Origin: an uncultured delta proteobacterium
GTDB lineage: Bacteria; Myxococcota_A; Polyangia; Polyangiales; Polyangiaceae
DNA: 64,000 nucleotides
Direction of reading: 5' to 3'
Assembly (NCBI GenBank): GCA_903906315.1
Contig: CAIVJW010000094.1
Location: forward strand, 1 to 64,000
The notes under the pieces were generated by a model that worked only from the letters and a program-made list of their open reading frames with translations, had not been told where the DNA came from and did no database searches. The translations under genes were made by a program, and so were the position numbers. Shown here in pieces: positions 18,241 to 37,753 of this stretch; within the stretch, counting starts at the first letter, position 1; each line of letters opens with the position of its first letter.

Positions 18241-18286
18241 CACGGCTTCCGCAGCCTGGGGCTCGAGCCCCGGCGGCGGCCTCGTG

Positions 18287-20675: not shown

Positions 20676-21937
20676 CCCTGCCTCCAGCGCTTGACCCTGA
20701 CGATGAGTTCGTGGATGAGCTCGAGGGCGATGTAGAAGACGAAGCCGCCGAGGATGCCCGGAATGGCCCACTTGTAGAACACGTTGACCCAGTAGACGAG
20801 AGCCCAGCGCTTGCTGTCGGGCTCGTAGTGGGATGTCCACGCGGCGGGGAAGTTGGCGTTCGACCCGGGGTGGCAGCGGCGACAGGTCTCAGCGAGGTTT
20901 TCCCGGACGACGCGCGACGCCGGGTCCTTTACCTTCTTGATGTCGTGAATGCCGTGGCAGTCGTAACAGACAGCCTTGTACTGATCGATCTCGGGCGTCG
21001 AGCCCTTGCGACCGAGCCGCACCGTGGTGCCGTGGAAGTCGTTGAGATACGACTTCGTCACGTTCGCGGAGAGATTGTACTTGCCCATCAGGGCCGCGTC
21101 GCCGTGGCACTTCGAGCACGTGTCAGGCGAGTCGAGCCGAAACAGCATCGTTTCGGGGTTGCGGATGTTGTGGATGCCGTGGCAGTCGGTGCAACTCGGG
21201 ACGTCGAGGTTGCTCTCCTCGATGAGCGCCTTGCCGTGCACGCTTTCGCGGTACTGCTTGAATATCGGCTCGTGGCACTTGGCGCACCCGCGCTGGATGA
21301 TGCCACGGTTGAGCTCTCGAGCGACGTTGCCGGTGAACGCATCGTGCGGCTTGCCGGCGTTGCTCTGGGAGGCTTCCAGGGTCTTGGTCTGGTTGTCCGG
21401 GTGGCAGGCCGTGCAGCTCATGTGCTTCACGCCGTGCATTGACTTGGCGTAGGCCGCCTTGTCGATGTAAAGGCTGAGCTCCTGGCCGCTCGGCAAGACC
21501 ATCTTGAGGTCCTGCTTCTCGTGGCACGCGAGGCAATACTCGTTGGTCACGCGTGGGGGCGTCGGCGTGTTCGCCACCTGCGCACGCGAGGACTGCGACG
21601 GGACGTGGCACGAGAGGCACGCCGCGCTGGGACGGCCCAGGTGGTCCCCCGGGAACGGCCGGCGCCCGGCGGGGCCGTGGCACGTGATGCATGCGGCCCG
21701 CCCCTCGAGGCTGTGGGGAACGATGCTCGGCGAGTCCGGGTCGGCGGGCCTCCGCGACGAGGTTGCCCCGTCCGCCGTGCCGGCAGGCGCTGGCGTTGAG
21801 CCGCCGTCATCGGCCGCGGCCACCGAGGGCGCCCGGTCGGCCACCGTGGGCACGCCCTGGGCCCAGCTCGCCGAGTGAGGGACGATCAGGTCGAGAACGA
21901 CGAGTGCAGCGCTAGTGGCAAGGCAGGCGCGACGCAT
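20672..21937 (-). CDS. Nonahaem cytochrome c with C-terminal membrane anchor
   Basis: 421 aa from the ATG at 21937, which opens a signal peptide (MRRACLATSAAL, cleavage near SWAQG). Nine CXXCH sites follow (CITCH, CLSCH, CLACH, CTACH, CAKCH, CTDCH, CSKCH, CYDCH, CRRCH), then a single transmembrane helix (about 385-410) and a short basic cytoplasmic end. The last part, CYDCHGIHDI to CRRCH and the anchor helix, matches the corresponding part of the CbcL-like fusion. It should hand electrons from the coupled cytochrome b to periplasmic cytochromes. An Ala/Pro-rich low-complexity stretch (about 35-80) precedes the haem region. Confidence 0.82.
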   Translation of the reverse strand: MRRACLATSAALVVLDLIVPHSASWAQGVPTVADRAPSVAAADDGGSTPAPAGTADGATSSRRPADPDSPSIVPHSLEGRAACITCHGPAGRRPFPGDHLGRPSAACLSCHVPSQSSRAQVANTPTPPRVTNEYCLACHEKQDLKMVLPSGQELSLYIDKAAYAKSMHGVKHMSCTACHPDNQTKTLEASQSNAGKPHDAFTGNVARELNRGIIQRGCAKCHEPIFKQYRESVHGKALIEESNLDVPSCTDCHGIHNIRNPETMLFRLDSPDTCSKCHGDAALMGKYNLSANVTKSYLNDFHGTTVRLGRKGSTPEIDQYKAVCYDCHGIHDIKKVKDPASRVVRENLAETCRRCHPGSNANFPAAWTSHYEPDSKRWALVYWVNVFYKWAIPGILGGFVFYIALELIHELIVRVKRWRQG

Positions 21938-22047
21938 GGAACCCAACCGACCCCCCCAAGGAGTTTCGAGGCATCCAGACACTACGCTCTTCGCCCGGGT
22001 AGCCGGGGCATGGTACATCGGCCTGGCTCCTGCGAGCGCAGCGCCGC

Positions 22048-22725
22048 TCAAGGCTTGTGCGAAGGACCTCCGTGTTCTGCGCCGGCGTCCGCGGGCGCCG
22101 CGGCGGCCGACCCGCTCGGCGCGGCCGACTTCAGGGGAGGCGGCGCTTCCACGGGCAGGGTACCGCGCACGGCTTCATCGAGCGACACTCGGCAGTAGGG
22201 AGCGCTGAACGTCCCCATCACGCAACTCTTTTCCCCATCTCCGAAGCACACGGCCAGGTCGCCCACGACGAGCCCGTCCGGAGTGGCCGCGCGAATGCGA
22301 AGGATCGCGGCGCCATCGGCACTGCCCGTCCAGCGCTCGGCGTCGCGAACCTGGTAATGGATCGACCAGCCGCCCGCCGGCTTCCCGGGCTCGAACCGCA
22401 GGACGCCGGGTTCGATCTTCCCGTCGCCCTCGAGGCGCAGCCAGATGCTCGTGGGCGTCTTCGGCTTGATCTCGCCGCAGGCCGCCTCGGAGCTGCCGCC
22501 GGAGAGCTTGATGTCGGTGTGAAGGTAGTTGACGCGGTGGTCGACGACGACTCGCGCGTCCCCGAGCTTGAACGGGACGCCGCGGATGGAACCGGTCAAC
22601 GGTGCATCGGGGATGGACTCAGGAGAGTCGGCCGGCGGGGCAACGTCCTTCGGAGCCTTCGGGTGCACCTCGTCCTGGCATGCAGCGAGCCCGAGTGCGA
22701 TCACGAGTAGGGGCGAACGGGTCAC
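22048..22725 (-). CDS. Hypothetical lipoprotein encoded with the NrfD module
   Basis: 225 aa from a GTG at 22725 that overlaps the NrfD-like stop (GTGA) and has GGAGG seven bases upstream. The signal ends in the lipobox LAAC (about residue 16). The mature protein is a small beta-rich domain with RGVPFKLGDARVVVDHRVNY, two cysteines in VCFGDGEKSC and an Ala/Pro-rich tail. It has no haem or Fe-S motif. I do not recognise the family. Tight coupling suggests an accessory lipoprotein of the NrfD/ferredoxin complex. Confidence 0.7.
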   Translation of the reverse strand: MTRSPLLVIALGLAACQDEVHPKAPKDVAPPADSPESIPDAPLTGSIRGVPFKLGDARVVVDHRVNYLHTDIKLSGGSSEAACGEIKPKTPTSIWLRLEGDGKIEPGVLRFEPGKPAGGWSIHYQVRDAERWTGSADGAAILRIRAATPDGLVVGDLAVCFGDGEKSCVMGTFSAPYCRVSLDEAVRGTLPVEAPPPLKSAAPSGSAAAAPADAGAEHGGPSHKP

Positions 22726-23930
22726 GAGGCGGCCTCCGGCTCGAGACGGCTCGTGCCAAGCTCGATGGGAACCGCTGCCTTCAGCAGCAAGGTGTAGATG
22801 AGCGCACCGGTCGCCCAGATCCCAGCCGATACGCAGAATTCGGTGAAGCTGGGGATGTAGTCTACCACCTCGCCGAGCGGGGAGGGCACGAAACCCGGAA
22901 TGACGAGCCCCATTCCCTTTTCCACCCAGACCCCAACGATCGCTGCAGCGCACCCCGCGTGGAGAACCGCTGGGCGCCGATAGAGCGCCTTCGTCGTGAA
23001 CACGATGGCCGCAAAGACGTCGAGGGCGACGGCGGACCAGATGTAGGGGACGAGAGTCGTGTGGCCGTGAAGTCCGAAGAGAAGGTACCGCATCGACGCG
23101 GCGTGGTGCTTGAAGCTGTACAGCTCGGTGAAGATCTCCGAGAAGAAGAAGAACAGATTGATGAGCATGGTCACGGCCACGATTTGACGTAGCCGATTGA
23201 GCGCCTCGTCCTTGAGCGGGAAGCCCATCTTGTCCCGGACGATGGTGAGCGCGATGATCATCAACGACGGCCCGGCCGCGAACGCAGAGGCGAGAAAGCG
23301 CGGAGCCAGGATCGCCGCGTTCCAGTGCGGTCGGGCACCCATGCCGCTGTAAAGAAACGCGGTCACGGTGTGAATGCTGACGGCCCAGCCGATCGCAAGG
23401 AAGACGAACGGGACGTACTTCTTCCGCTCCGGCGTTCGCCCGCAGAACTTGGTAAAAAGTATGTATCCCGTGATGTAGGCATTCAGTGCCAGATACCCAT
23501 TGAGGACGATGACGTCCCAGGTGAGCATCGAGACAGGCCAGTTGAACCGAATGAAGTGCCAGATTCGGTCGGGCCGCCCGATGTCGACCATCACGAACAT
23601 GAGGCACATCGTGAGTACGGCAACCGCCAGCAGCTCGCCGAGCACCACGACATCGTGGAGTGCGTGGTCGTGGTAGACGTACGCAGGGATGACCAGCATC
23701 ACGGCGCCCGCAGCCATTCCGACGAGGTACGTGAAATTGGCGATATATGCGCCCCAGGGCACGTGGTCGACGAGATTCGTCGCAACGAAGCCTACCCTCA
23801 GCTGGTGAAGGTACGCGGCGCCTCCGAGCGCGATCCACGCCAGAAGGAAGGCGATCCATATGTAGTAGGACCGCCCTCCCCGGAGCATCGAGCGCAGGGA
23901 AGAGGTGACGAAGCGGAACAAGGGGAGCAT
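22722..23930 (-). CDS. NrfD/PsrC-family membrane quinone-interacting subunit
   Basis: 402 aa with about ten hydrophobic segments, the size and topology of PsrC/ActC/HmcC-type NrfD proteins. Typical features are HVPWGAYIANFTYLVGMAAGA near the second helix, DIGRPDRIWHF after the third, and PRFLASAFAAGPSL in the middle. NrfD proteins exchange electrons between quinol and a partner ferredoxin and may couple this to proton movement. The ferredoxin partner is the gene 15 bp upstream; no molybdopterin catalytic subunit is present. Electrons probably pass to the tetrahaem lipoprotein at the start of the operon. Confidence 0.88.
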   Translation of the reverse strand: MLPLFRFVTSSLRSMLRGGRSYYIWIAFLLAWIALGGAAYLHQLRVGFVATNLVDHVPWGAYIANFTYLVGMAAGAVMLVIPAYVYHDHALHDVVVLGELLAVAVLTMCLMFVMVDIGRPDRIWHFIRFNWPVSMLTWDVIVLNGYLALNAYITGYILFTKFCGRTPERKKYVPFVFLAIGWAVSIHTVTAFLYSGMGARPHWNAAILAPRFLASAFAAGPSLMIIALTIVRDKMGFPLKDEALNRLRQIVAVTMLINLFFFFSEIFTELYSFKHHAASMRYLLFGLHGHTTLVPYIWSAVALDVFAAIVFTTKALYRRPAVLHAGCAAAIVGVWVEKGMGLVIPGFVPSPLGEVVDYIPSFTEFCVSAGIWATGALIYTLLLKAAVPIELGTSRLEPEAAS

Positions 23931-23945
23931 CGGCGTCCGTTCCTG

Positions 23946-24908
23946 CTAGCCGAAGAAGTAGTAGAAGCGCGGCAGGGTAGCGAGCTCCTCCTTGAGGACG
24001 TAGACCCGCTTGCTCTCGATGATCTTGCGAATATCGCTGTTCGGGTCGTTCAGATTGCCGAACTTGCGTGCGCCCGTGGGGCACGCCTCGAGGCACGCCG
24101 GAAGCCTACCCGTCCTCGTCCGATGAAGGCAGAAGGTGCACTTCTCGACGACGCCCTTGTGCCGAGCTCGGTTCGAAAGGTAGCCCTGGGTCGGATTGAT
24201 TCGGTCTGGCGGGATGCTGGCTTCGACGAAGTTGAAGCGGCGGGCGAAGTAGGGGCACGCGACGACGCAAAACCGGCAGCCGATGCACCAGCTGTAGTCG
24301 ACGACGACGATGCCGTCGGGCTCCTTCCAGGTGGCCTGGACCGGGCAGGCCTTCACACAGGGCGGATTGTCGCACTGGTGGCACTGCACCGGCATGTAGA
24401 ACTTGCCCTCGGCCGGCACCTTCTCACGGTCGTAGTAGGGCGTCGCCTCCTCGAATTCGAGAGAGCCCTTTTCCATCTCGAGGACCCGAATGTATCGAAT
24501 TTCGGGGTCGTCTGGGAGGTTGTTCTCTCGCGCGCAGGCCTCCACGCACCGGCGACTCCCATTGCACACGGAGAGATTGAGCGCGTAGGCGAACTCGACA
24601 CCGTCGATGGGGGCGGGGTCATTCATGTGGATGGTCACACCACTTCGACCGCGCACCTCGTCTTCAATCAGGGCGAAGATCCGCTTCTTGTCGTCCGGCG
24701 TCAGCGTCTTGTAATGCTGGCGGAGAAACTCCTCCCCGGTTGGAGCGCCGATTCCGCAGCCCTCCGTCGCTGCGGTCGCGGCGGCAGCGGCAGCGACCTT
24801 GAGGAAGGTTCGGCGCGTCCCGGAGTCGTCGACACGCTGGTCGACGAGCCCATGCGTGACATCGTCCCCGGAGGACGAGGCTGCGCAGTGTTCAGTGTCC
24901 TTTGCCAT
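23946..24908 (-). CDS. Tat-exported multi-[4Fe-4S] ferredoxin subunit (HybA/PsrB-like)
   Basis: 320 aa. A Tat motif RRTFLK with a long Ala-rich core (about residues 32-50) predicts export. Four clusters are visible. Site 1, CNGSRRCVEAC, has Ser where the second Cys is expected, so it may hold a modified or three-iron cluster. The others are CHQCDNPPCVKACP, CIGCRFCVVACP and CTFC-x11-CLEACP. It would pass electrons between the NrfD subunit and periplasmic cytochromes. The start overlaps the upstream cytochrome gene by 17 bp, and GAAGG precedes the ATG. Confidence 0.87.
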   Translation of the reverse strand: MAKDTEHCAASSSGDDVTHGLVDQRVDDSGTRRTFLKVAAAAAATAATEGCGIGAPTGEEFLRQHYKTLTPDDKKRIFALIEDEVRGRSGVTIHMNDPAPIDGVEFAYALNLSVCNGSRRCVEACARENNLPDDPEIRYIRVLEMEKGSLEFEEATPYYDREKVPAEGKFYMPVQCHQCDNPPCVKACPVQATWKEPDGIVVVDYSWCIGCRFCVVACPYFARRFNFVEASIPPDRINPTQGYLSNRARHKGVVEKCTFCLHRTRTGRLPACLEACPTGARKFGNLNDPNSDIRKIIESKRVYVLKEELATLPRFYYFFG

Positions 24909-25518
24909 GTCCTTCGCTCTCGCCCTCCTCCGGGCCCATCGCGTGCGTCTCTGCAGGCGCCGTCCTCGGCCACTCGGGCATTCGCTCCGGCTTCATGGGA
25001 GCGAAGGCGGGGGAGTGGGGGTCATGGCAATTGGGACAGGATCTGCGTACTTGGGCACCGTTCCAGAAGCCCGTCGTCAGTCCGTGCAGGCCAGCTTTCC
25101 AGTCGCGGAACTTGTCGCCGTGGCAGGAGCCGCAGACCTCGTATGCGTGGTCGAAGTCGACGAGGGTCCCGTCCTGAAGGTGCAGCTTGTCGATGTCGTC
25201 TTTTGTGTGGCAGCGATAGCACCACCCACCCTGCGTCCCGTGGTTGAGGACCTTGTGGGTGTGAAACTCCGTGAATTTGCGCTCGCGAGGGTCCGGCTCC
25301 CGGTTCGGCGAGAAGTGGCACCGGGAGCACGGATAGGTCGAGAGCAGGGGCGTCCTCGCCTCGACAGTCACTACGACGCTGGACGTGCCACCCTTCGGCA
25401 GCTGGCGGTGGTGCAGCGGCTCCTCCGACTGGTTGCAGCCGGCGGCCAGACTGGCGAACGGGAGCAGCACGGTGGCCCCGAGGCGAGGCGAAATGTAGGC
25501 TAGCCAGGGGAGGCGCAT
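24892..25518 (-). CDS. Tetrahaem cytochrome c lipoprotein
   Basis: 208 aa from the ATG at 25518, the in-frame start that leaves a short signal ending in LAAGC (lipobox near residue 28); the frame stays open upstream to about 25800 and no start has a strong ribosome site. Four CXXCH sites occur: CSRCH, CYRCH, CGSCH and CPNCH, with many extra His for axial ligation. The C-terminus is rich in Glu, Gly and His. It is the first gene of the leftward operon and probably takes electrons from the ferredoxin/NrfD pair. The start is less certain than the rest. Confidence 0.75.
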   Translation of the reverse strand: MRLPWLAYISPRLGATVLLPFASLAAGCNQSEEPLHHRQLPKGGTSSVVVTVEARTPLLSTYPCSRCHFSPNREPDPRERKFTEFHTHKVLNHGTQGGWCYRCHTKDDIDKLHLQDGTLVDFDHAYEVCGSCHGDKFRDWKAGLHGLTTGFWNGAQVRRSCPNCHDPHSPAFAPMKPERMPEWPRTAPAETHAMGPEEGESEGHGKGH

Positions 25519-25850
25519 CAGCGCGGGCGGCGTAGCAAGGGGCGTGCCGGGAGGGTTCGCGGGCGGTCCCGTCGTAGCCGTCGGGGCGCTGCGGTTCGCG
25601 GCTCTGCGTTGGCCGACCATTGGAGTGCCGGCGTGCGCATCCGTTGCGGGGGATCGGGTCGTGCCGTGACTCGATTCGTCCCGGGGGGTCACGCCTGGCG
25701 TCGCGCGGCGCCGTCGTGTGGCGAGGCGCCTCGCCGCAAGGTGCGCGCGTCTCGCGCAAGAGCTGCGGCCCATTTGGCTCAAATTCCCCTTGAAAGCCAT
25801 GGCTCATGACGTGCATAAGGCCGCGTGTCCCCTTGCACGAGGAACGTTCG
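25519..25850. promoter_or_regulatory. Divergent promoter region between the two inner-membrane operons
   Basis: About 330 bp separate the start of the tetrahaem lipoprotein gene (leftward) from that of the Rieske gene (rightward). Promoters for both operons should lie here. I see a slightly AT-richer patch around 25775-25810 but no clear -24/-12 or -35/-10 pair, so the position is inferred from gene orientation only. Confidence 0.45.
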
Positions 25851-26333
25851 TTGTCCGACTCGACCCCCCCGCCGGAACACGCTGGCATGCAGCCCGAGGC
25901 GCCCCAGTTGGCCCCTGCTCCGCGCCGAGACTTTCTGAGTGTTGCCGCTGGAGGCAGTGCGGTCGCGTTTGCCGCGGCTGCGGGCTACCCGGTCCTGCGG
26001 TACATGGAGCCGCGGACGCGTCCGCCCTCGGGCCCGACGACGATTGGCCGGCAGGAGGAGTTCCCCCCGGGGGCAGCGAGGATCGTTGCGGTCGAAGACC
26101 GGCCGGTTCTCGTCATCCGGGGCGAAGACGGGAAGTTTCAGGCATTCGTCGCGCTGTGCACGCACCTACAGTGTGTCGTCGGGTACTCGAAGGAGCGCAA
26201 GCAGATCGAGTGCGGTTGTCACCGAGGCGTCTACAATCTCGAAGGGCTTAACGTCGCGGGGCCGCCCCCGCGGCCGCTGGAAGTGCTCGATGTGGCCCTG
26301 CGGGATGGCATGGTCGTCGTGAGTGAGGCGTGA
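25851..26333 (+). CDS. Rieske 2Fe-2S protein of a bc-type complex
   Basis: 160 aa from a TTG at 25851 with GAGGAA six bases upstream; ATGs at 25806 and 25887 are alternatives. An RRDFLS motif followed by an Ala/Gly-rich helix resembles a Tat-type membrane anchor. The cluster-binding motif is complete: CTHLQC and CGCHRG, giving two Cys and two His ligands plus the disulfide Cys pair. It transfers the first electron from quinol. The stop overlaps the cytochrome b start (ATGA). Confidence 0.9.
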   Translation: MSDSTPPPEHAGMQPEAPQLAPAPRRDFLSVAAGGSAVAFAAAAGYPVLRYMEPRTRPPSGPTTIGRQEEFPPGAARIVAVEDRPVLVIRGEDGKFQAFVALCTHLQCVVGYSKERKQIECGCHRGVYNLEGLNVAGPPPRPLEVLDVALRDGMVVVSEA

Positions 26334-27364
26334 TGGAAGCGGGCGGACGGCGCACTGGATGGCTTGCGGACCGCTCTGGTTGGTCCGACCTCGTTCGGCC
26401 TCTCGAGGCGCGACGCGTCTCTGCCACGGGCTTCGATCGGTACCTTGGCGGCATCACGCTGCTCCTCTTCCTGATCGAGGTGGCGAGCGGCATCCTTCTG
26501 CTGCTTTACTACAAGCCGGATACGGTCCAAGCGTACGCCTCCGTCGGGCGAATCGTCGGCGAGATCCCCTACGGCAATCTCATCCGGAACGTGCACGCCT
26601 GGTCTAGCGACCTGTTCGTTGCCAGTCTCGGCGGTCACTTGCTTTCGGTCGTGCTGCGCCGGGCCTACCGCGCGCCCTATGAGCTCCGCTGGCTCAGCGG
26701 GATCGTGCTGCTCGCCATCGGAATTGGGCTCGCATTCACCGGAGCCGTCCTGCCGTGGAGCCAGAAGGCCTACGTTCAGGCTCGCGTCGGCAGCGAGCTC
26801 GCCCGATACGTGCCGGTGCTGGGCGATTGGCTTCATCGGTTCTTGCGCGGGGGCGACGAGGTTACCTCGGCGACGCTGCAGCACGCGTTCGGGTTTCACG
26901 TCGCGGTGCTTCCTGCTGCGTTGTCTCTCTTCTTCGCTGTCCACGTCGTTCTCCTCATGAGAAAGCGCGAGGAAACGGCTCCGGTCGAGGGGGCCTCGAT
27001 TCCTGTCTATCCGGATTTCATCATCAGGCAAGCGGCCGCCTGGACCGGCGTCGTCGTCGCGGTCATCACGCTCGCGACGTTTTCGGATCGTCTTCTTGGC
27101 TCGCCTGCTGATCCGCGCATGGCGACTCCCAGCGACGCTAGGCCGCCGTGGTACTTCCTCTGGTTCCACCAGATCGTTGCGTCGTCGTCGCGCGATCTAT
27201 TGGGCGTGAACGGGCCCAAGTTTCTCGTGGGTACTGCGTGCTTGCTCGGTGCGCTCGTCGTGGGGCTTCCATTTCTCGATCGAAGAGGTTGGAAAGTCAC
27301 TGCGTACTTGGCGCTCGTCCTCGTCTTCGTCCTCGTCGTGCTGTCAGTCAATGCGCTCTCCTAA
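26330..27364 (+). CDS. Cytochrome b of a bc-type complex (cytochrome b6-like with extra helices)
   Basis: 344 aa. Helices B and D carry the haem histidines: HAWSSDLFVASLGGH (14 apart) and the pair in HAFGFH...FAVHVV. The Qo-site region usually reading PEWY appears as RPPWYFLWFHQIV (about residues 265-277), so Glu of PEWY is replaced by Pro. About eight hydrophobic segments are present. With the Rieske protein it should oxidise quinol and pump protons by a Q-cycle or a variant. There is no cytochrome c1; the next gene is a nonahaem cytochrome whose start lies inside this gene's end. Confidence 0.88.
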   Translation: MMEAGGRRTGWLADRSGWSDLVRPLEARRVSATGFDRYLGGITLLLFLIEVASGILLLLYYKPDTVQAYASVGRIVGEIPYGNLIRNVHAWSSDLFVASLGGHLLSVVLRRAYRAPYELRWLSGIVLLAIGIGLAFTGAVLPWSQKAYVQARVGSELARYVPVLGDWLHRFLRGGDEVTSATLQHAFGFHVAVLPAALSLFFAVHVVLLMRKREETAPVEGASIPVYPDFIIRQAAAWTGVVVAVITLATFSDRLLGSPADPRMATPSDARPPWYFLWFHQIVASSSRDLLGVNGPKFLVGTACLLGALVVGLPFLDRRGWKVTAYLALVLVFVLVVLSVNALS

Positions 27365-28694
27365 CCGCAACGCAATCCGCCTCTCCGTGATCGCGCTCGC
27401 GCTCGCGGCCCTCGCCCGTCAGCCGGACGCCGCTGCCGGTCCGCCGGTTCCGGCGGCGTCCGCCTCGGCTTCGCCGGCATCGAGTCGGGCGCTGACGCCG
27501 CCTCTCGAGTCCGCAAATACCTGCGTGACGTGTCATGCCGGCCTCGCCGATCCGAAGCTGCGAGCGCCCACGACGGAGTATTCGTCGAGCGTGCACCGCG
27601 ACGACCGGATTGGTTGTGTCGGCTGTCACAAAGGGGATCCGCGCGACCCGACCGCGGGCGCCCATCGGGCGGCCGGCTTTCTCCCGCACCCGTCGCACGC
27701 CGAGATCGCGGGCGTCTGCGGCGGTTGTCACAGCGATGCCGGGTTCATGCGGCACATCAACGCGCGGCTGCCGGTTGGTCAGCAAGCCCTGTTCAATCTC
27801 AGCCTCCATGGCAAGCTGTCGGGGGCTGGGGACACCATGGCCCCGACGTGCTCGGTCTGCCACGGGCGGCACGAGATTCTGCCGGCAGCGTCGCCGAAGG
27901 CGCCCGTCAACCGATTGAACGTCGCGAAGCTATGCGCTGGGTGCCACGCCGACCCGAAGCACATGGCGCCCTACCAGATCCGAACGGATCAGTTCGCCAA
28001 GTGGGAGCGCAGCGTTCACGGTGAGGCCTTCAAGAAGGGCAATCCGCTGGCGCCGACCTGTACCGGCTGCCACGGTGCGCACTCGGCGACGCCTCCCGAG
28101 GCGTCGTCGGTTGCACGGGCTTGCGGGCGCTGCCACGAGGAGGAGCTTGCGCTTTTCGAGCAGAGCCCGCACTCGAAGGGCTTCAAGAAGCGAGGGCTGG
28201 CTCCTTGCGTCGCTTGTCACAGCAACCACGACGTCGCGCCGGCGAGCTCGCTGCATGTGGGCCTCACTCCGGACGCCACGTGCACGAAGTGCCACTCGAA
28301 CGACGAGAAACCGCTGAAGGCCGCGGACGAGCTCGCCGGTTTGCTTCGAGGCGCGCGTGATCGTGCGGCGGCGGCCCGTGCTGCGGTCGCCCGCGCGGGT
28401 GACGAGGGGCTCCATATCTCGGGGGCACCTTTTGCGCTGGACCAGGTGGCTACTGCGGAGCTGAAGTTGAGGCCCGTCGTCCACACGCTCGACCCGAAGC
28501 GGATGGCGGTGGCTGTCGCAGCCGTCGAGCAGGCGGCTGCCGCGGCCGAAAAGCTGGTCACTGACGCGGAGCAGGGGAGGAGAATTGAGCGGCGCGGCTA
28601 CTACGCGGCGCTTGCGCTCGCATTCTTGCTGTTTTCGACGCTTTCCCTGAAGGCTTGGCAACTAGAGGGGCGACGGAGGCTGGGTTCACCATGA
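27351..28694 (+). CDS. Nonahaem cytochrome c, tail-anchored, in place of cytochrome c1
   Basis: 447 aa from the ATG at 27351, which overlaps the cytochrome b end by 14 bp. A signal peptide (cleavage near DAAAG) is followed by nine CXXCH sites: CVTCH, CVGCH, CGGCH, CSVCH, CAGCH, CTGCH, CGRCH, CVACH, CTKCH. Then comes an Ala-rich helical part (about 340-420) and a C-terminal membrane helix. Intervening SVH and SLH motifs, as in octahaem cytochromes of the NrfA/HAO style, may be axial ligands. Its place suggests it receives electrons from the Rieske protein. It ends as ATGA with the 34-haem gene. Confidence 0.85.
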   Translation: MRSPNRNAIRLSVIALALAALARQPDAAAGPPVPAASASASPASSRALTPPLESANTCVTCHAGLADPKLRAPTTEYSSSVHRDDRIGCVGCHKGDPRDPTAGAHRAAGFLPHPSHAEIAGVCGGCHSDAGFMRHINARLPVGQQALFNLSLHGKLSGAGDTMAPTCSVCHGRHEILPAASPKAPVNRLNVAKLCAGCHADPKHMAPYQIRTDQFAKWERSVHGEAFKKGNPLAPTCTGCHGAHSATPPEASSVARACGRCHEEELALFEQSPHSKGFKKRGLAPCVACHSNHDVAPASSLHVGLTPDATCTKCHSNDEKPLKAADELAGLLRGARDRAAAARAAVARAGDEGLHISGAPFALDQVATAELKLRPVVHTLDPKRMAVAVAAVEQAAAAAEKLVTDAEQGRRIERRGYYAALALAFLLFSTLSLKAWQLEGRRRLGSP

Positions 28695-30952
28695 CGTCGC
28701 CCGTGGCCGCCAGCGGTCGCCGAGGAGCGGCCCGAGGCGGAGTTCGGCGGTACCTCGTTCTCCTCGCGGTGGTTGCGCTTGCCGTGCTCGTGGGCGCTGC
28801 GGTGTACCGAACGCACGGCTATGTCAGCCATGAGGCGGCGTTCTGCGGCGGGTCGTGTCACATCCCGAAAGACGCCACGGACTCGTGGCACTCCCGCGGG
28901 CACGAGGGTGTGCAGTGCCAGTCGTGTCATCCGGTGAACACGGGGTCGAGCTACGGCTTGCTCTGGCGCAAGGTGCTTGCAACGAGGGACGTCCCGAAGC
29001 ATGGGAAGGCGGAGGCGCGCGAGTGCACGAGCTGCCACCAGAAGAAGCCGGCGGAGTGGCGCCTGATCTCGGCTACCGAGGGGCACCGGACTCATCGTGC
29101 GGTCAAGGACGTCGACTGCATCGCGTGCCACGGGCCTGCGACGCACAAGGCGCCCGCGCCTGCTGAGCAACTGTGCCTGAAGTGCCACGAGATGGCGCGC
29201 TTGCACAAGCAGGCGAACGATGCCGAGACCTGTCTTTCCTGCCACAGCTTCGCCGTGAGCTCGCGCTTGGCTCAGAAGCTCACGACGCGCGCGTGCGAAG
29301 GGTGTCATGCCGACCCGGCGAAGATCCTCGAGGCAGCCAAACCAGGTGCGAAGCTGCCTGCGAAGCTCGTGGGGCCGGAGGTGTTGCACGGGGGGTTGGA
29401 CTGCAAGCTCTGTCACGACCCGCACGGTCGTAAGCCTCGTGTTCCCGAGGGGCAGCCGGTTTGCGCGCGGTGCCACCAGTTCGAGATGTTTCAGGCCGGC
29501 ACCGAGGAGCGAAAGGGGCCTGAGGGGCACCGTAACTGCGAGGGGTGCCATCGTCCGCACATGGAGCGCAAGCACGCTCTGGATTCGTGTGTGCGTTGTC
29601 ATGAGACCCGCGCAAAGGGCATCACTGCCGCAGGAGCGGGGACGTCGAGCGCGACGAAACACCGTAGCTGCGCGAGCTGTCACCTGCCGCATTCGTGGCG
29701 GGCGGAGCGTGCCGGCTGCATGACGTGCCACGAGGACAAGGCGGCGAGCATTCTCAACGCGAGTCCGGCAGGGCACAACGAGTGCACGAAGTGTCACGAC
29801 GTCCATGGGCCGCCGCCGAGCGGACAGGTCTGCCTGAAATGTCACAGCGATACGAAGTCGAAGCACGTCGCATTGGCGCCTGCTCGGCATAAGGACTGCA
29901 CTGCGTGCCACAATCCCCATGCGGCGAGCCGCGTCGTCGCTCGAGGCGCGTGTGCGGGATGCCACACGCAGCAGCTCGCGAACGTCATGCGGGACGGCCC
30001 GCAAGGGCATGCGAAGGGCGGGTGCTTCGGCTGTCACAAGCCGCACGAGAACCCGTTGCCTCCGGCAGATCTTTGCAGCCAGTGTCACGGGGAGAAGGCG
30101 AAGGTCGTCGCTGCTGCGGGCCCGCCGAAGCACCGCGTTTGCACCTCGTGTCATCAGCCACACAAGTTCGCCATCACGAGCGCCGCCGCGGCATGTTCGA
30201 AGTGCCATGGCCCTATCATTCAGCCCGGGGGGCCACACCAGGGCGATTGCAAGAAGTGCCACACCTTGCACGGCACGCCCACTGTCCCGAAGAGCGCGTG
30301 CTTCGAGTGCCATCAAAACGTATCGGCGGTCTTCAAGCCGCCGCCTGGCAACGAGCAGCATTCGAAGTGTCGCTCGTGTCATCAGCCGCACCGGCCGGCG
30401 TCGACGGCTCCGGCGAAGTGCCCGACCTGCCACCAGCCGAAGGCGGAGGTTGCCAAGGCTTGGCCCCCGAGCTCCGCGCACGCTCAGGAGTGCAACAAGT
30501 GTCACCAGCCGCATGATGTGCGGAGCAAGAAGCCCTGCGTCGAGTGTCACGCGAGCGAAGCTGCCAGCGCGATGGGTGGGAAGCACCAGTGTATGCAGTG
30601 CCACCCGCCGCACAAGGCGCCACCGGGCGCAGGGCCTGCTTGGTGGGGGCGCTGCCAGAGCTGCCATGCCGAGAAGGCTCAGAGCGTGAAGAGCCGTGGG
30701 CCGAAGCACTCCGAGTGCAAGAACTGCCATCAGCCGCATCGGTTTGCGGTGCCAGCGTGCACGACCTGTCATAAAGCCATGCAGGACAAGGGGGCGCACG
30801 GTATCAAGGAGCACGCTGCCAAGTGCAACGCCTGCCACAACCCTCATACGAGCGACGCGCCAGTTCGCGCTCAGTGCCTCGCTTGTCACACGAACAAGCA
30901 GAGCCATCAGCCCGAGGCGCAACGCTGCCAGGCTTGTCACCCGTTTCTGTGA
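28691..30952 (+). CDS. Giant 34-haem cytochrome c with NapC-like N-terminus
   Basis: 753 aa from the ATG at 28691 (ATGA overlap with the previous gene; GGAGG upstream). One N-terminal membrane helix (about residues 25-45) lacks a clear cleavage site, so it may stay membrane-anchored. I count one CX3CH site (CGGSCH) and 33 CXXCH sites, roughly one per 22 residues, up to CQACHPFL at the very end. Most sites occur in pairs, with -PH- after one member (CTSCHQPH, CNKCHQPH, CKNCHQPH), giving a repeated fold. There is no catalytic domain. A periplasm-spanning electron wire or store is inferred; it is the last gene of the Rieske/cytochrome b operon. Confidence 0.88.
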   Translation: MTSPVAASGRRGAARGGVRRYLVLLAVVALAVLVGAAVYRTHGYVSHEAAFCGGSCHIPKDATDSWHSRGHEGVQCQSCHPVNTGSSYGLLWRKVLATRDVPKHGKAEARECTSCHQKKPAEWRLISATEGHRTHRAVKDVDCIACHGPATHKAPAPAEQLCLKCHEMARLHKQANDAETCLSCHSFAVSSRLAQKLTTRACEGCHADPAKILEAAKPGAKLPAKLVGPEVLHGGLDCKLCHDPHGRKPRVPEGQPVCARCHQFEMFQAGTEERKGPEGHRNCEGCHRPHMERKHALDSCVRCHETRAKGITAAGAGTSSATKHRSCASCHLPHSWRAERAGCMTCHEDKAASILNASPAGHNECTKCHDVHGPPPSGQVCLKCHSDTKSKHVALAPARHKDCTACHNPHAASRVVARGACAGCHTQQLANVMRDGPQGHAKGGCFGCHKPHENPLPPADLCSQCHGEKAKVVAAAGPPKHRVCTSCHQPHKFAITSAAAACSKCHGPIIQPGGPHQGDCKKCHTLHGTPTVPKSACFECHQNVSAVFKPPPGNEQHSKCRSCHQPHRPASTAPAKCPTCHQPKAEVAKAWPPSSAHAQECNKCHQPHDVRSKKPCVECHASEAASAMGGKHQCMQCHPPHKAPPGAGPAWWGRCQSCHAEKAQSVKSRGPKHSECKNCHQPHRFAVPACTTCHKAMQDKGAHGIKEHAAKCNACHNPHTSDAPVRAQCLACHTNKQSHQPEAQRCQACHPFL

Positions 30953-31394: not shown

Positions 31395-32090
31395 CTATTG
31401 TGGATGGAACTCGAGGGATGCCTCGATTCGAACGACGTCGTCGATGCTGTCATGCATGCAGACGCTCATCAGGCGCTTGGCGTTCTCGTTGAGACCGTAG
31501 TCGGAGATTCGGACCTCCGTCGGCTTGGTCGTCTTGACCCAGATCGTGCCGGTCGGGAGCACGCCGAGGTCGACGGCCAAGAGGACCCGCGCTGTGCGTT
31601 GGTGCAGCGTCAAGTCGCCGTCGAGCTTGGCATGGAGGACCGGCTTCTTGTCGCGTAATCCGACGAGGGCGCTTTCGGGCAGCGGGCGCATGACCAGCTC
31701 CGCGGTGTCCTTCGCGGAGGTTTCGAAAAAGAACTGCTTTACGCGCTCGTTGCGCATGGGGACGCCGGATTCGAAGGTTCCCAGGTCGAACGAGATTCGG
31801 CCCGACGACAGCGCCGGCTCGCCCAGGGCGAGCACCCCGTCGCGCAGGGCCATCGTCGCCACCACCGGCGTCGTGGCATCGTGGTCCTTGACGATCGTCA
31901 GCTTGATCGAGCTTCTCTGCAGATCGAGCAGGACCTCGCCGCTCTTGGCGACCCGCGGGGGAGAGGCCTTCGTCGCCTGGGTGCCGGCGGGGCCCGCGGT
32001 CGGGCCGGCCGTTGTCTCGCGTCGGCCGCACGCGACCGTCAGCATCGCGCCGACGATTGTCATCCTACAAGCCAGCGCCTTTGGATTCAT
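31395..32090 (-). CDS. YceI-like lipoprotein
   Basis: 231 aa. The signal ends in VACG (lipobox near residue 21), then an Ala/Thr/Pro linker. The main domain (about 50-230) has the YceI lipocalin-like pattern: an SSIKLTIVKDH opening strand, SFDLGTFESGVPMRNERVKQFFFE with the conserved RN-x-x-x-x-x-FF turn, a ...LDGDLTLH strand and a C-terminal SDYGLN segment. YceI-type proteins bind polyprenoid lipids such as quinones. The gene is set opposite the cytochrome operons, so a link to quinone handling is only suggestive. Confidence 0.75.
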   Translation of the reverse strand: MNPKALACRMTIVGAMLTVACGRRETTAGPTAGPAGTQATKASPPRVAKSGEVLLDLQRSSIKLTIVKDHDATTPVVATMALRDGVLALGEPALSSGRISFDLGTFESGVPMRNERVKQFFFETSAKDTAELVMRPLPESALVGLRDKKPVLHAKLDGDLTLHQRTARVLLAVDLGVLPTGTIWVKTTKPTEVRISDYGLNENAKRLMSVCMHDSIDDVVRIEASLEFHPQ

Positions 32091-32402
32091 CGCACCACCC
32101 CACGACAGACCGAGGTGCCACTAGAGCAAACGGCCCGTGGCCAGTCAATCTTCGTCGTGCGTCGAGCGCGCCGGGGATTTGCCGCGCATGACGTGGTCGG
32201 CCGCGTCGGCGCGAGCGGGGGGCGCACCCGCGAAGCTTGGGACGCGCGGCGCGTGCGTGCGGCGCGCAGCGGGTGCGCGGCGAGGGGGCGGTGCGGCGGG
32301 CTGTACTGGGTTGGACACGCATGGTATCGCTGCGTGACGTTAGGCGGCTGGCTTGGTTTGGTTCTTGCTCGCGCTCCCGCAGCAATCACGGAGGTTTGGG
32401 TC
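32091..32402. promoter_or_regulatory. Divergent intergenic region (312 bp) upstream of the conduit operon
   Basis: This region lies between the YceI-like gene (leftward) and the OB-fold gene (rightward). It must hold the promoter of the porin-cytochrome operon. I found no confident promoter element, repeat or coding frame in it apart from the ribosome site GGAGG at its right end. Confidence 0.45.
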
Positions 32403-33245
32403 ATGCGTATGGCGTATGTGCTGGTGGCTGGGATCGTGGTCGCCGGGGCGCTCGCTGCCGGCGGGATTGATCGGAAGTTCGGCCACACGAGCGAGGCGAC
32501 GCCCGCCCCGGAGGCGACGGTGGCGGCTGCCGCCGGTCACGCGGCGGCCGCGCCGGCGGCGGACGACGCGACCGAGGTCATTGCGGGTGAGGTGCTCGAG
32601 ACGCTGGATGCGGGCCGGTACACCTACGTCCGCATCGGCCCGAAGGGCTCACCGGGCACCTGGGCGGCCGTGTCGAAGGAGCCCATCGAGATTGGCTCGA
32701 CGCTGAAGATCGCGAACGCGGTCGCCATGAAGGACTTCAAGAGCGAGACGCTGAAGCGCACGTTTGCGACCGTCTACTTCGGTGTCGTGGACCGTGGTGG
32801 AGCCCCGAGCGACGGGACCCACGGCGGCGCGCTGCCCGGAAGCGCACACGGCGGGGACGTCGATCCCGCGAAGAACCCGCACGGCAACCGGCCCGACGTT
32901 CCCGCGGACATCAAGGTCGGCAAGGTCGAGCGCGCCAAGGGGGGCAAGACGATCGAGGAGATCTGGGCGAAGAAGGCTGAGCTCGTCGGCAAGAAGGTGG
33001 CGGTGCGCGGCGTCGTCGTGAAGCGCACGAACGGCGTGTTGAACAAGAACTGGCTGCACCTCAAGGATGGATCCGGCGGGCAGCCGAGCGGCGACGACGA
33101 CCTCGTCGTGACCACGACCGAGACCGTCGAGCTCGGCCAGACCGTGGTGCTCGAGGGGACCGTCTTTGCGGACAAGGACCTCGGTTCCGGCTATCGCTAC
33201 CCCGTGCTGGTCGAGGACGCGGCAGTCATCAAGGACTCGAAGTAA
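32403..33245 (+). CDS. Exported OB-fold (nucleic-acid-binding-like) protein
   Basis: 280 aa from the ATG at 32403, eight bases after GGAGG. A signal or anchor helix (residues 1-22) is followed by an Ala-rich linker, a first OB-like beta-barrel (GEVLETLDAGRYTYVRIG...TWAAV, about 60-120), a Gly/His-rich linker with HGG repeats, and a second OB-like barrel (KKVAVRGVVVKRTNGVLNKNWLHLKDG, about 195-275). Such exported OB-fold proteins are known beside multihaem cytochrome genes in metal-reducing bacteria; their job is unclear. It heads the conduit operon, 198 bp before the barrel gene. Confidence 0.7.
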   Translation: MRMAYVLVAGIVVAGALAAGGIDRKFGHTSEATPAPEATVAAAAGHAAAAPAADDATEVIAGEVLETLDAGRYTYVRIGPKGSPGTWAAVSKEPIEIGSTLKIANAVAMKDFKSETLKRTFATVYFGVVDRGGAPSDGTHGGALPGSAHGGDVDPAKNPHGNRPDVPADIKVGKVERAKGGKTIEEIWAKKAELVGKKVAVRGVVVKRTNGVLNKNWLHLKDGSGGQPSGDDDLVVTTTETVELGQTVVLEGTVFADKDLGSGYRYPVLVEDAAVIKDSK

Positions 33246-33443: not shown

Positions 33444-34871
33444 ATGAGGATTCGACTCCCGATCGCCGCCGCCACCGTCCTCGCCGCGATCACGTGCTCC
33501 GGGCGAGGCGCCGCGCAGGCTGCGGCCGAGTCGGCGCCGGCGGCGCCCGCGCGTGCGGTCGAGCGGCGGCCCGACGCCGATCAGACGACGGTCCGCGTGG
33601 ATTCCGCGACGTACGTCCGCTACTTCCAGCGAGCGCTTCTGCCGGGGCCTGGGGGCGCGCTCGTCGAGAGCACCTCGACCGCGCCCCTCTACGAATACGC
33701 GGCGGTGCGCATCGACGGCATCGATACGCCCTGGAAGAAGGACAGCGTCGACGTCGAGCTAGCGGGCTGGGCGAACGTCAACCTCGGTGACGCCGAGGGG
33801 GGGCTCCGTGCGGACGGAGACGTGACGGTCGCGAGCGTCCGGCATCGGCTCGGGCCAGCCTACGTGACGGTCGGGCGCCAGCTCCGGGTGGGCGGGGCGG
33901 CTCGGTTCTCCCGCTTCGACGGCGCGTCGGCGGGCGTACGGGCTCCGTTCGGTGTGGGAGCGGACGCTTACGGTGGTTGGAGCGTGCTGCCTCGTTGGTC
34001 CCAGCAACCGGGGTACCATCTGCTCGGGTCCGCGTCCGACACGCTGCTCAGGAACCCGGAGGCGCTGCCGCCGACGTCCCGGAACGGCTACTGGCTTGCG
34101 GGGGGACGCGCGTACTACGCATACCGAACGAAGGCCGAGCTGGGCGTATCGTTTCACGAGCAGCGAGAAGCGGGTAACCTCGGTCGTCGGGATGTTGCCG
34201 CTGACCTGCGCATCGCACCGTGGGAGGTCGTCTCGCTGTCCGGCCAGGCGATGATGGACGCCGACTCGTGGTCGCTCGCGGACGCGCGCGGAGTGCTCGA
34301 GGTGGCCCCGCTTCGGTGTATCTCGATCACGGGCGAGTACTTGCACACGGACCCGTCGCTGTTCTTGTCACGCCAGTCGCTCTTCAGCGTCTTCGCGACG
34401 AACGCCTTCGACGAAGCCGGCGGCACCGTCACCTGGAGGCCCGTGCTAGCGCCGCAGTTGCAGCTTGCGGGTGGCGGCTTCGTCGAAATGTTCCGCGACG
34501 GCGAAGCGGGCTACCGGGCAAATGGGCGCTTGCGGTATTCGATGCGTCGCGACCGGGTCGTCGGTCAGGTGGCGTACACGCGAGTCCACGAGATGCAGAA
34601 TGGCTACCACGGCGGCCGCATCTCTCTGGGGGTTCGGCCCATCGAGCAAGCCGCCTTGAACTTCGAAGGCTACCTTTACCTCTATGACGAGACGATCCGA
34701 GGGGCCTCCTCCTCGCTCGTGGGGGCCGCGAACGCGGAGTGGAGCCCGAGCCGCCTGTTCTCGCTTCTCGTGGGCGGCTCCCTCGCGCGCACGCCCTACG
34801 CTTCGCTCGACGCGCAAGGCCTCGTTCGTGCGATCGTCCACTTCGAGACTCGCGCTGGAGGTGCCCGTTGA
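33444..34871 (+). CDS. Outer-membrane beta-barrel of a porin-cytochrome conduit
   Basis: 475 aa from the ATG at 33444, which opens a signal peptide (cleavage near GAAQA). The mature chain is almost entirely alternating beta-strands with aromatic girdles (for example DSVDVELAGWANVNLG and QLQLAGGGFVEMFRDG) and a closing IVHFE strand near the C-terminus. The size fits the OmbB/OmbC porins of Geobacter rather than larger MtrB. No haem motif is present. The stop overlaps the TTG start of the dodecahaem lipoprotein gene, strongly coupling the two. An insulating sheath for a cytochrome wire through the outer membrane is inferred. Confidence 0.72.
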   Translation: MRIRLPIAAATVLAAITCSGRGAAQAAAESAPAAPARAVERRPDADQTTVRVDSATYVRYFQRALLPGPGGALVESTSTAPLYEYAAVRIDGIDTPWKKDSVDVELAGWANVNLGDAEGGLRADGDVTVASVRHRLGPAYVTVGRQLRVGGAARFSRFDGASAGVRAPFGVGADAYGGWSVLPRWSQQPGYHLLGSASDTLLRNPEALPPTSRNGYWLAGGRAYYAYRTKAELGVSFHEQREAGNLGRRDVAADLRIAPWEVVSLSGQAMMDADSWSLADARGVLEVAPLRCISITGEYLHTDPSLFLSRQSLFSVFATNAFDEAGGTVTWRPVLAPQLQLAGGGFVEMFRDGEAGYRANGRLRYSMRRDRVVGQVAYTRVHEMQNGYHGGRISLGVRPIEQAALNFEGYLYLYDETIRGASSSLVGAANAEWSPSRLFSLLVGGSLARTPYASLDAQGLVRAIVHFETRAGGAR

Positions 34872-35947
34872 GCCGCGCATCGGTCCTTGCCGTCCTCGCG
34901 CTCGCCGCCGCGCTGGGGGCGGGGCTCGGCTGCAGCACTGGGGCGTCGACGCGTTTTCCGCACGCCCCCCACCTCACCGGCAAGAATTGCGGTGGCGCGG
35001 GGCAGCTCGCCTGCGCGACGTGCATGACCTGCCACGCGGGCGTGCGCGAGTCGAATGACAAGGCGTTCCCGACCGTCGCACGCTGCGCGAGCTGTCATGC
35101 GTCCGGGGCGACTCCGGAGGGCGACTCCGTCACGGTGAAGGGGATTCGATACGCTGGGCCCAGTGCCGCTTCGCCGGCGGTTCAGGCCTCGAGGGCGATC
35201 GTGTTCTCCCACAAGAGCCACATGCCGCGCGCTGGCATCCGCGAGCAGTGCATGAAGTGTCACGCGGGGGCGCCCGACGATGGCAAGTCGGCGGCCATGT
35301 ACCCGCCGATGGAAAAGTGCCTGACGTGCCACGACCAGGGCTTCGCGGTCGGCGACTGCCGGCGCTGTCACCAGGCGGGCGACCTCACCCGCCTGCGTCC
35401 GGAGAGCTTCCTCCGCCACGACGCCGCGTTTTTTCGCGACCATGGCGTGAAGGCCACGCAAAACCAGAAGGTTTGCGCGCAGTGTCATTCGCAGAACTGG
35501 TGCAACGACTGTCACGACCCGAGCCAGACGATGACGTTCGAGGCCCGGAACCCCGACGCATTTCAGCGGGAGATGGTCCATCGAGGCGACTTCGTCACGC
35601 GGCACTCGATCGAGGCGCGCTCTGCCGTGGCTACCTGCCAGCGGTGCCATCAGCCGTCGTTTTGCGACAGCTGCCACGTGCGGCGTGGCGTGTCGGGTGG
35701 CGCGCAGGGCGCCCGCAACCCGCACCCCGTGGGTTGGGTAGGGCGCAATGCGTCGGGGCCTAACTTCCACGGAGCAGCCGCGAAGCGGGACATCGTGACG
35801 TGTGCGGCATGCCACGATCAGGGGCCGGCGACGAACTGCATCTTGTGTCACCGCGTGGGCGCCGCCGGCGGTAATCCTCATCCGAGCGGCTGGTCGAGCT
35901 CGCGCTCGTCGCAGTCCGCGATGTGCAGGTACTGTCATGGTGGCTGA
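34868..35947 (+). CDS. Dodecahaem outer-membrane lipoprotein cytochrome (OmcB-like)
   Basis: 359 aa from a TTG at 34868; GGAGG six bases upstream and the TTGA overlap decide this start over longer frames. The signal ends in GLGC (Cys about 20). Twelve CXXCH sites follow: CMTCH, CASCH, CMKCH, CLTCH, CRRCH, CAQCH, CNDCH, CQRCH, CDSCH, CAACH, CILCH, CRYCH. FSHKSHM and HRGDFVTRHS supply likely axial His. The length and haem-to-residue ratio are those of a compact nanowire cytochrome; OmcB of Geobacter is also a 12-haem lipoprotein paired with a porin. It probably spans or caps the barrel. Confidence 0.82.
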   Translation: MSRASVLAVLALAAALGAGLGCSTGASTRFPHAPHLTGKNCGGAGQLACATCMTCHAGVRESNDKAFPTVARCASCHASGATPEGDSVTVKGIRYAGPSAASPAVQASRAIVFSHKSHMPRAGIREQCMKCHAGAPDDGKSAAMYPPMEKCLTCHDQGFAVGDCRRCHQAGDLTRLRPESFLRHDAAFFRDHGVKATQNQKVCAQCHSQNWCNDCHDPSQTMTFEARNPDAFQREMVHRGDFVTRHSIEARSAVATCQRCHQPSFCDSCHVRRGVSGGAQGARNPHPVGWVGRNASGPNFHGAAAKRDIVTCAACHDQGPATNCILCHRVGAAGGNPHPSGWSSSRSSQSAMCRYCHGG

Positions 35948-37622
35948 TCGGCTTCTCTGGCTCGCCATCGGTCTGGGCGTCTCCGCCACGCTTGGGGGCT
36001 GCCTCGAGCGTCGCGACGACGATCAGGGCGCGAACGCCGAGCCGAACCCGTGCACGCCGTGTCACGGCGCCAGCGGGCGGCCCGGTACGCCGTTGCAGCA
36101 GGCCGCTCCTCCCAACGACCTGAGCGGTAACACCGAGATGTCGGCGCCAGGGGTCGGGGCGCACCAGATCCATCTCGCCACGACCGCCGGGCACCGCGCG
36201 ATTGAGTGTGGCGAGTGCCATGTCGTCCCCCGGACGGTCGAGCAGCCCGGTCACGCGGACGGCAAGGGACCCGCGCAGTTCGTGCCGGGCCCGCTTGCCT
36301 CCTACGCGGGGCGTGCTCCGAGGTACGACGCCGTCGCGCATACGTGCAGCAACGTGTATTGCCACCTCGACGCGACCCCCCAGTGGACCGCGCCGCGCGT
36401 CGATGCGTGTGGGACATGTCACAGTTTGCCACCCGCCGCGCCGCATCCTCAGTCCAAAGACTGCTATGCGTGTCACGGCGAGACCGTCGACAAGTCGGGC
36501 GCCATCGTCGACGTCACCAAGCACATCGACGGCAAGGTGGAGGTCTCGCAGACTTGTCACAGTTGCCACGGTACGCCCGAGTCCGTGGCGCCGCCCAGGG
36601 ACCTGGCGGGTAACACGGATCCGTCGGCACCGGGCGTCGGGGCGCACCAGAAGCACCTCGCGGGCGGCGCAAAGAGCCGTCCGATCGCGTGCGGGGAGTG
36701 CCACGTGGTGCCGGCGAAGGTCGGAGATTCGGGGCACCTGGATGACACCGAGGGGGCTGAGGTCACGTTCAGCGGGGTGGCGAGGACGGAGAAGCACGAG
36801 CCGAGCTTCGACGCGAAGACGCTCCGCTGCGCGGACTCGTGGTGTCACTCGCCCCAGCCCGACGGCAAGCCGGCGGCGTCGCCGCGCTGGACGGGTGAGG
36901 ATGGCGACCCGACCTGCACGACCTGTCACGGTCAGCCGCCGTCGGCGCCGCACGTGCAGATGTCCAATTGTTCGTTCTGCCACCTCGATGTCGCGGGTGA
37001 TGCCAAGGACTCGATCAAGAATCGGGCGCTCCATGTCGACGGCAAAGTCGAGGTGGTGCTTCCGACGAAGTGCAATGCGTGCCACGGCAGCGCCGACTCC
37101 GACGCCCCCCCGCGCGACGTCGCGGGCGAGACGGCGACCACGGCGCGCGGGGTCGGTGCGCACCAGAAGCACCTCGGAGCCAGCTTGGTTTTTCGCAAGG
37201 TGGAGTGCAACGAGTGCCACGTCGTCCCGGCAACGGTGAAGGCGGCAGGTCACTTCGACACCCCGGCGCCCGCGGAGCTCACCTTCTCGGGCGTGGCGAC
37301 GGCGGGCGTGGCGAAGCCGCAATGGGACGGCGTGAAGTGCTCGGACACGTATTGCCACGGGACGGCGGTGAAGGCCGGCCAGGACATGAAGGGCTCGGTT
37401 CCGGCGCCCGAATGGACGAAGGTCGACGGGTCGCAGGTGTACTGCGGTAGTTGCCACGGCATCCCGCCGATCGAGACGGACCCGAACAAGCCTCAGACGA
37501 CGCACCCGATCGCCTACGAGTGCCCGGACTGTCACAAGAACCTCTCGACGGGCTTCATCTTCAAGGACCCCTCGCTGCACGTGAACGGCAAGGTGGACAT
37601 GACCGTCGGGGTCGATCTCTGA
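35937..37622 (+). CDS. 15-haem lipoprotein cytochrome with CX4CH sites (Geobacter CxxxxCH...CXXCH-type repeats)
   Basis: 561 aa from the ATG at 35937, overlapping the previous gene by 11 bp. The lipobox is LGGC. Three similar repeats (about residues 20-195, 195-365, 365-545) each contain GVGAHQ-x-HL, a CXECHVVP site, a CX4CH site (CSNVYCH, CADSWCH, CSDTYCH) and further CXXCH sites. I count 12 CXXCH plus three CX4CH. The combination matches the CxxxxCH...CXXCH domain first noted in Geobacter (I recall it as TIGR01904). It is probably a surface or periplasmic partner of the barrel. Confidence 0.82.
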   Translation: MVADRLLWLAIGLGVSATLGGCLERRDDDQGANAEPNPCTPCHGASGRPGTPLQQAAPPNDLSGNTEMSAPGVGAHQIHLATTAGHRAIECGECHVVPRTVEQPGHADGKGPAQFVPGPLASYAGRAPRYDAVAHTCSNVYCHLDATPQWTAPRVDACGTCHSLPPAAPHPQSKDCYACHGETVDKSGAIVDVTKHIDGKVEVSQTCHSCHGTPESVAPPRDLAGNTDPSAPGVGAHQKHLAGGAKSRPIACGECHVVPAKVGDSGHLDDTEGAEVTFSGVARTEKHEPSFDAKTLRCADSWCHSPQPDGKPAASPRWTGEDGDPTCTTCHGQPPSAPHVQMSNCSFCHLDVAGDAKDSIKNRALHVDGKVEVVLPTKCNACHGSADSDAPPRDVAGETATTARGVGAHQKHLGASLVFRKVECNECHVVPATVKAAGHFDTPAPAELTFSGVATAGVAKPQWDGVKCSDTYCHGTAVKAGQDMKGSVPAPEWTKVDGSQVYCGSCHGIPPIETDPNKPQTTHPIAYECPDCHKNLSTGFIFKDPSLHVNGKVDMTVGVDL

Positions 37623-37753
37623 GCGTGCCGACCATGGGACGAACCAAACAATTTCGAACGTCGACTGGAACTGCATCGCTCGCGGCCTGGGAGCGCTCGC
37701 CGAGGACCGGACTCACCGGCACCGGGGCATGCTGGGCATCAAGGAGGCATGTC

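Follow-up and report, generated by a model that had tools for sequence, protein, structure and literature searches.

An open reading frame of a Myxococcota contig (28691..30952, + strand), here called J, encodes a c-type cytochrome of 753 residues with 34 haem-binding sites. With moderate confidence, we propose that J is a periplasmic conduit, anchored in the inner membrane, that connects quinol oxidases with a conduit in the outer membrane. The gene was analyzed within a window of 64,000 nucleotides (i.e. the whole stretch of DNA under study) and in related genomes. It is debated how electrons traverse the periplasm, which is roughly 20 nm wide; for Shewanella and Geobacter, small shuttle proteins are the accepted means. 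J probably carries respiratory electrons across this space, and if it does, small shuttle proteins would be needless.

The reading frame, its coordinates, and its 34 sites (33 CXXCH and one CX3CH, the latter at C52 of the ORF translation) were confirmed as described in a sequence-only reading of this DNA. All 68 Cys residues of J belong to haem motifs, and none is spare. The mean density of 22.1 residues per haem (20.6 within the haem-bearing part) agrees with the one site per 22 residues noted earlier, and the regular CXXCH-PH pairs of that reading were recovered as 11 occurrences of CHxPH (13 of CHx[P/V/L]H). Haem-haem spacing alternates, mostly between 14-18 and 18-27 residues. Haems 8-34 form a chain of di-haem units (29375..30949, + strand) with the pattern H..CXXCHxPH..CXXCH, and distal His and haem alternate strictly one-to-one across most of haems 7-34.

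Relatives were collected in two surveys. The first covered 145 related genomes, 56 of which had a match, and 20 loci were read with their flanks. The wider survey consisted of a profile search of 237 Myxococcota genomes and the reading of 20 more loci. The search for homologues of similar repeat number was fruitful: at 34-62% identity (n = 21), 34 sites were counted in 17 members (J and 16 of 20 relatives) and 33 sites in the other four, with sites from CX2CH to CX4CH included in the counts for relatives. Over these 21 members, the columns of the haem motifs vary little or not at all, far beyond chance; the alignment has 124 invariant columns, nearly all Cys or His, and most members have 68 Cys. 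In addition, the His columns outside the motifs that are shared by at least 70% of the members number exactly 34. Because exactly 34 further conserved His thus accompany the 34 proximal ones, all 34 haems of J are predicted to be bis-His ligated. In one relative (L034), haem 25 (near C580 of J) has apparently kept the first Cys and the His and lost the second Cys, which might mean a haem bound through a single thioether, or else an error.

Interhaem spacing is position-specific and constant across the family, and the C-terminus always lies 3-17 residues past the last haem. The same-numbered haem block was the best match in relatives in 351 of 544 comparisons (about 16 expected by chance). Self-comparison for repeat units was partly successful: blocks were more similar at even haem lags (about 0.12) than at odd lags (about 0.08), but outside the motifs identity among the repeats is only about 13% (0.13, vs 0.33 when one and the same haem is compared across species). 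Judged from these alignments, the di-haem repeat of J is real but ancient; since repeats are less alike than the same haem in different species, the duplication is old and predates the family. The suggestion of growth by repeat duplication therefore stands for the repeat itself but not for ongoing growth, as count and per-position spacing are fixed. Recent repeat growth was ruled out by the fixed haem count, the fixed spacing, and the low inter-repeat identity.

Across the wider survey, haem number was fixed per clade, at 12, 27, 30, or 33/34. Members of the 12-haem class (about 300-340 residues) have the same N-terminal module as J, and those of the 27-haem class start with a lipoprotein signal or a transmembrane (TM) segment and have no NapC-like part. 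A relative in another family (L024) has 28 haems. Two shorter members, with 19 and 23 haems, either sit at or close to the end of a contig or represent short forms. Full-length 33/34-haem matches occurred in about 23 of the 184 genomes of the order. In 247 Desulfobacterota genomes, matches were partial and generic, and no N-terminal module was found among the matches listed. A scan of genome contigs with one protein brought up a single true relative, together with a weak match in Desulfatitalea, whose genome yielded short generic multihaem matches only. No relative was found in the viral contigs, plasmids, and phages searched.

Near its N-terminus, J has a predicted TM anchor (residues 21-39; 28751..28807, + strand; hydropathy 2.64) that is conserved in relatives, and all haems lie C-terminal to this single segment. 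Because an Arg-rich tail precedes the hydrophobic segment (positive-inside rule), the haem-bearing part is expected on the periplasmic side, in an N-in/C-out topology, in line with the export of the N-terminal region that had been presumed. The anchor and haems 1-6 form a module with a NapC/NrfH-like start (28718..29269, + strand) that is homologous in the 12-, 30-, 33-, and 34-haem classes and alignable through all six haems. This module (184 residues, 10-193) matches PF03264 NapC/NirT (E = 1.5e-9, 38.3 bits vs a cut-off of 24.1), and its profile matches the NrfH structure 2j7a_C over the TM segment and haems 1-2 (E = 3e-13). The earlier statement that J has no other domain was thus incorrect.

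These two matches are what would be expected if J were itself a NapC/NrfH-type quinol dehydrogenase extended by a long tail of haems, and the Rieske complex belonged to a separate branch. The CXXCHxM motif kept by some 12- and 30-haem relatives points the same way. However, the haem 1 motif of J is CGGSCHIP, without that Met, conservation is low between haems 2 and 3, and a separate quinol oxidase nearly always travels with J; we therefore regard a dehydrogenase role as improbable.

The genes around J would supply both ends of the proposed conduit. Upstream, on the + strand, are genes for (i) a Rieske Fe-S protein (25806..26333; PF00355; CTHLQC, CGCHRGVY, and a twin-Arg RRDFL), (ii) a cytochrome b (26330..27364; PF00033/PF00032; HX13H and HX14H as the two haem-b His pairs, and PPWY), and (iii) a 9-haem c-type protein (27351..28694) with a signal peptide and a C-terminal hydrophobic tail, which stands in the place of cytochrome c1. 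J follows, and the successive overlaps are 4, 14, and 4 nt. Divergent from this operon, and conserved beside it, is the gene of a 4-haem lipoprotein-like cytochrome (24892..25800, - strand), whose true start is probably downstream of the ORF start. The same strand encodes a 4Fe-4S ferredoxin-type subunit (23946..24908; PF13247 and others), an NrfD-like membrane subunit with 8 TM (22722..23930; PF03916), a further 9-haem c-type protein with a C-terminal TM as read from sequence, domains, and TM prediction (20672..22051), an ImcH-like NapC/NirT protein with 7 CXXCH, 1 CX3CH, and 3 TM (18287..19846; PF03264), and a CbcL-like fusion of 10 CXXCH and a b-type membrane domain (16099..18444; PF14537/PF01292; true start downstream). 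The names ImcH-like and CbcL-like rest on domain layout and resemblance. One island thus holds three putative kinds of quinol oxidase (CbcL-like, ImcH-like, and Rieske/cytochrome b) and an NrfD/4Fe-4S/4-haem module (16099-25800 and 25806-27364); this module as a whole is divergently oriented to the Rieske operon and stays next to it in relatives.

Downstream of J, a YceI-like lipoprotein (31395..32090, - strand; PF04264), sometimes near J in relatives, precedes a set of genes on the + strand. The first, L, encodes a small exported protein (32412..33245, its start placed inside ORF 31881-33245) without Pfam match, recurring in the vicinity of J at about half of the loci. M (33516..34871, putative start) is a predicted outer-membrane beta-barrel, possibly a porin; it has no Pfam match and its barrel signal is weak (family-averaged alternation of 21 segments vs 14.2 ± 2.6 in shuffled sequences), and its position beside N and O recurs in relatives. 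N (34739..35947) is a 12-haem lipoprotein-like cytochrome; O (35802..37622) is another, with 12 CXXCH and CxxxxCH/CxxCH domains (TIGR01904, E = 1.6e-32); and P (37451..40141), likewise a lipoprotein-like cytochrome, has 8 haems and carries a collagen-like stretch as well as carboxypeptidase-regulatory-like domains. For N, O, and P, the true start is downstream of the ORF start. G+C content is 65-69% in the cytochrome island (12001-40000 of the window) vs 70-75% in the flanks, which may reflect a separate origin or the codon demands of Cys/His/Lys-rich proteins.

Neighbours within 7 kb were counted for 20 33/34-haem loci; several contigs end early, and the counts are therefore lower bounds. Rieske and cytochrome b genes adjoin the 33/34-haem gene in at least 11 loci, a CbcL- or ImcH-like gene is near it in at least 8, and a quinol oxidase of any of these kinds is present in at least 17. 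The order around the 9-haem protein is conserved in relatives, and its gene accompanies the relative of J also at two loci (L048, L052) where Rieske/cytochrome b was not seen. The coupling of J to the Rieske/cytochrome b operon, which its gene overlaps, was correctly recognized in the sequence-only reading, but a wire from a bc complex is too narrow a description, because seven of the 20 relatives have neither Rieske/cytochrome b nor the 9-haem gene beside them and six of those seven adjoin CbcL/ImcH-like genes. The family tree of the 34-haem proteins, which has some long branches, does not separate Rieske-linked and other members into two clean clades. The CbcL-linked L038 nests with the Rieske-linked group, and partners have therefore changed. 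Three genomes carry two copies with different quinol oxidase partners, i.e. G112 (L037, L038), G054 (L039, L040), and G043 (L036, L045). The link of J to a given quinol oxidase is genomic.

At the other end, outer-membrane-type genes (M, N, O) were present in at least 11 of the 20 loci, a recurrent genomic link that is consistent with the outer-membrane connection suggested earlier. The remaining nine loci had no gene of this set within 7 kb. These nine loci would fit J being an electron store (capacitor) or a local hub in the periplasm, anchored in the inner membrane, which would accept up to 34 electrons from several quinol oxidases, pass them to soluble partners, and leave the outer membrane untouched. 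So would the 12-haem relative, which is clearly too short to span the periplasm and adjoins a CbcL-like gene in 9 of 9 cases; a linear geometry of the chain in J, moreover, is hypothetical. Several points speak against a store or hub. The fixed haem number and the matched distal His favour a defined chain; in the 27- and 30-haem clades, 8 of 10 genes lie directly beside N, which ties these clades to the outer-membrane set; and no c7/c3 partner was found in three carrier genomes. In the latter search, which addressed c7/c3 types, the Cytochrome_C7 and Cytochrom_c3_2 models had no match in open frames shorter than about 210 residues; by comparison, about 10 of 39 Desulfobacterota genomes yielded frames of 116-166 residues with the same c7 model. 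We consider the store or hub somewhat unlikely and retain the conduit as the preferred reading.

Structural models were of limited use in describing the chain. The full-length AlphaFold2 model of J, built from a two-sequence input, reached a pLDDT of 32, and its sole usable part was the TM helix (block pLDDT up to 74). A four-haem segment was modelled with a pLDDT of 60 and a pTM of 0.50 from an alignment of the internal repeats and one relative (L031), overlapping repeat windows being left out on account of wrong register. This model had no match in the PDB, and Foldseek and VIA gave none. Profile searches of the PDB with J gave the GSU1996 dodecahaem 3ov0 (E = 9e-19) and MtrA 6r2q chain A (E = 8e-14) among the best matches. 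Multihaem proteins of linear (GSU1996, MtrA) and of non-linear arrangement (HmcA) were matched alike, and these matches may reflect motif composition. Packing in OmcZ takes 58.1 Å per 8 haems, 7 of these in the main chain (PMC9473688), and the periplasm is about 200 Å wide (PMC7096707). By simple arithmetic, OmcZ-like packing would give a chain of 34 haems a length of about 240-274 Å.

In the conduit that we favour, the inner-membrane enzyme that oxidizes menaquinol would be the Rieske/cytochrome b complex, in which the 9-haem protein would take the position of cytochrome c1; relatives would also use CbcL/ImcH-like enzymes. The electrons would enter J near its membrane end, hop along the 34 bis-His haems towards the outer-membrane set (barrel M and lipoprotein cytochromes N, O, and P), and then leave the cell. 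We infer this direction of flow, a linear chain that crosses the periplasm, and physical contact between J and its presumed partners (the 9-haem protein and M/N). Direction is unreadable from sequence, and similar conduits have been proposed for Fe(II) oxidizers (PMC5566968, PMC10734462), so that J might instead carry electrons inward, e.g. from Fe(II). Yet the ImcH- and CbcL-like genes and the Rieske complex of the same island are mainly quinol-oxidizing types, and ImcH homologues have been reported from Fe(III) reducers only (PMC6295460), which makes uptake quite improbable. A stronger form of the outward conduit, in which each quinol oxidase owns a covalent wire, i.e. an anchored, periplasm-spanning 34-haem chain docked on one outer-membrane conduit and replacing shuttles, appears rather unlikely; haem number would then be fixed because chain length must match periplasm width. 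With a built-in anchor, a fixed set of 34 haems, and no c7/c3 shuttle detected in three carrier genomes, crossing by a single molecule is directly testable. The paired copies beside different quinol oxidases also raise the question whether differences in potential separate the electron routes.

Several known systems share features with J. The closest in proposed role are the PCC3 periplasmic multihaem cytochromes of Sideroxydans, Leptothrix, and others, which have 21-27 haems and have been proposed to span the periplasm (PMC5566968, PMC10734462). They resemble J in their many haems (22-39 residues per haem vs 22.1), and they lie beside a porin and outer-membrane cytochromes, for which M, with its weak barrel signal, and the lipoprotein-like O and P are the candidates here. 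Compared by description, J has 34 haems, with 27 and 30 in related clades; it differs in having its own TM anchor with a NapC/NrfH-like start, and it sits with Rieske/cytochrome b or CbcL/ImcH-like genes. A PCC3-type inner-membrane protein with 5 TM (WX3HX13H) was absent from 12-45 kb, where only cytochrome b, NrfD, and the CbcL-like fusion have at least 4 TM. J resembles NapC/NirT proteins (NrfH, CymA) in its single N-terminal TM and in haems 1 and 2, with PF03264 above cut-off, but has 34 haems instead of 4-5 and misses the Met after the first haem motif.

The neighbours of J have the Rieske 2Fe-2S motifs and the cytochrome b His pairs of a bc-type complex with a multihaem c subunit. Rieske, cytochrome b, and multihaem c-type proteins also occur together in Geobacter, in the clusters GSU2930-2937 (2, 10, 12, and 5 haems; PMC2825233) and Pcm of G. 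metallireducens (Gmet_2117-2123; PMC10989804). The island of J resembles the latter, which includes 4Fe-4S and 4-haem subunits as well (PMC10989804). In contrast to J, no long anchored cytochrome is described in either cluster (PMC2825233, PMC10989804), and PpcA-type triheme periplasmic proteins are abundant in Geobacter.

In haem number, J is matched by Gmet_0571, Gmet_0581, and Gmet_2470 of G. metallireducens (34 haems; PMC10989804) and by cytochromes of ANME archaea (up to 34 haems; PMC5673622). By description, J is set apart from Gmet_0571 and Gmet_0581, which are described as outer-surface proteins (Gmet_2470 has no assigned location), and from the large archaeal cytochromes, some of them S-layer-fused. 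GSU1996 and MtrA have 10-12 haems and no anchor, and J scored 62 bits against the DmsE/MtrA decahaem family TIGR03508, below the curated cut-off of 192.2. OmcS-type nanowire subunits are secreted and have no anchor, unlike J with its predicted, family-wide TM segment. Spanning multihaem cytochromes had thus been proposed before (PCC3), as had clusters of Rieske/cytochrome b and multihaem proteins been described in Geobacter, and 34-haem cytochromes were known. What is new in J is the combination: its anchor is of NapC/NrfH type, its haem number is fixed and has ligands to match, and the quinol oxidases beside the gene alternate.
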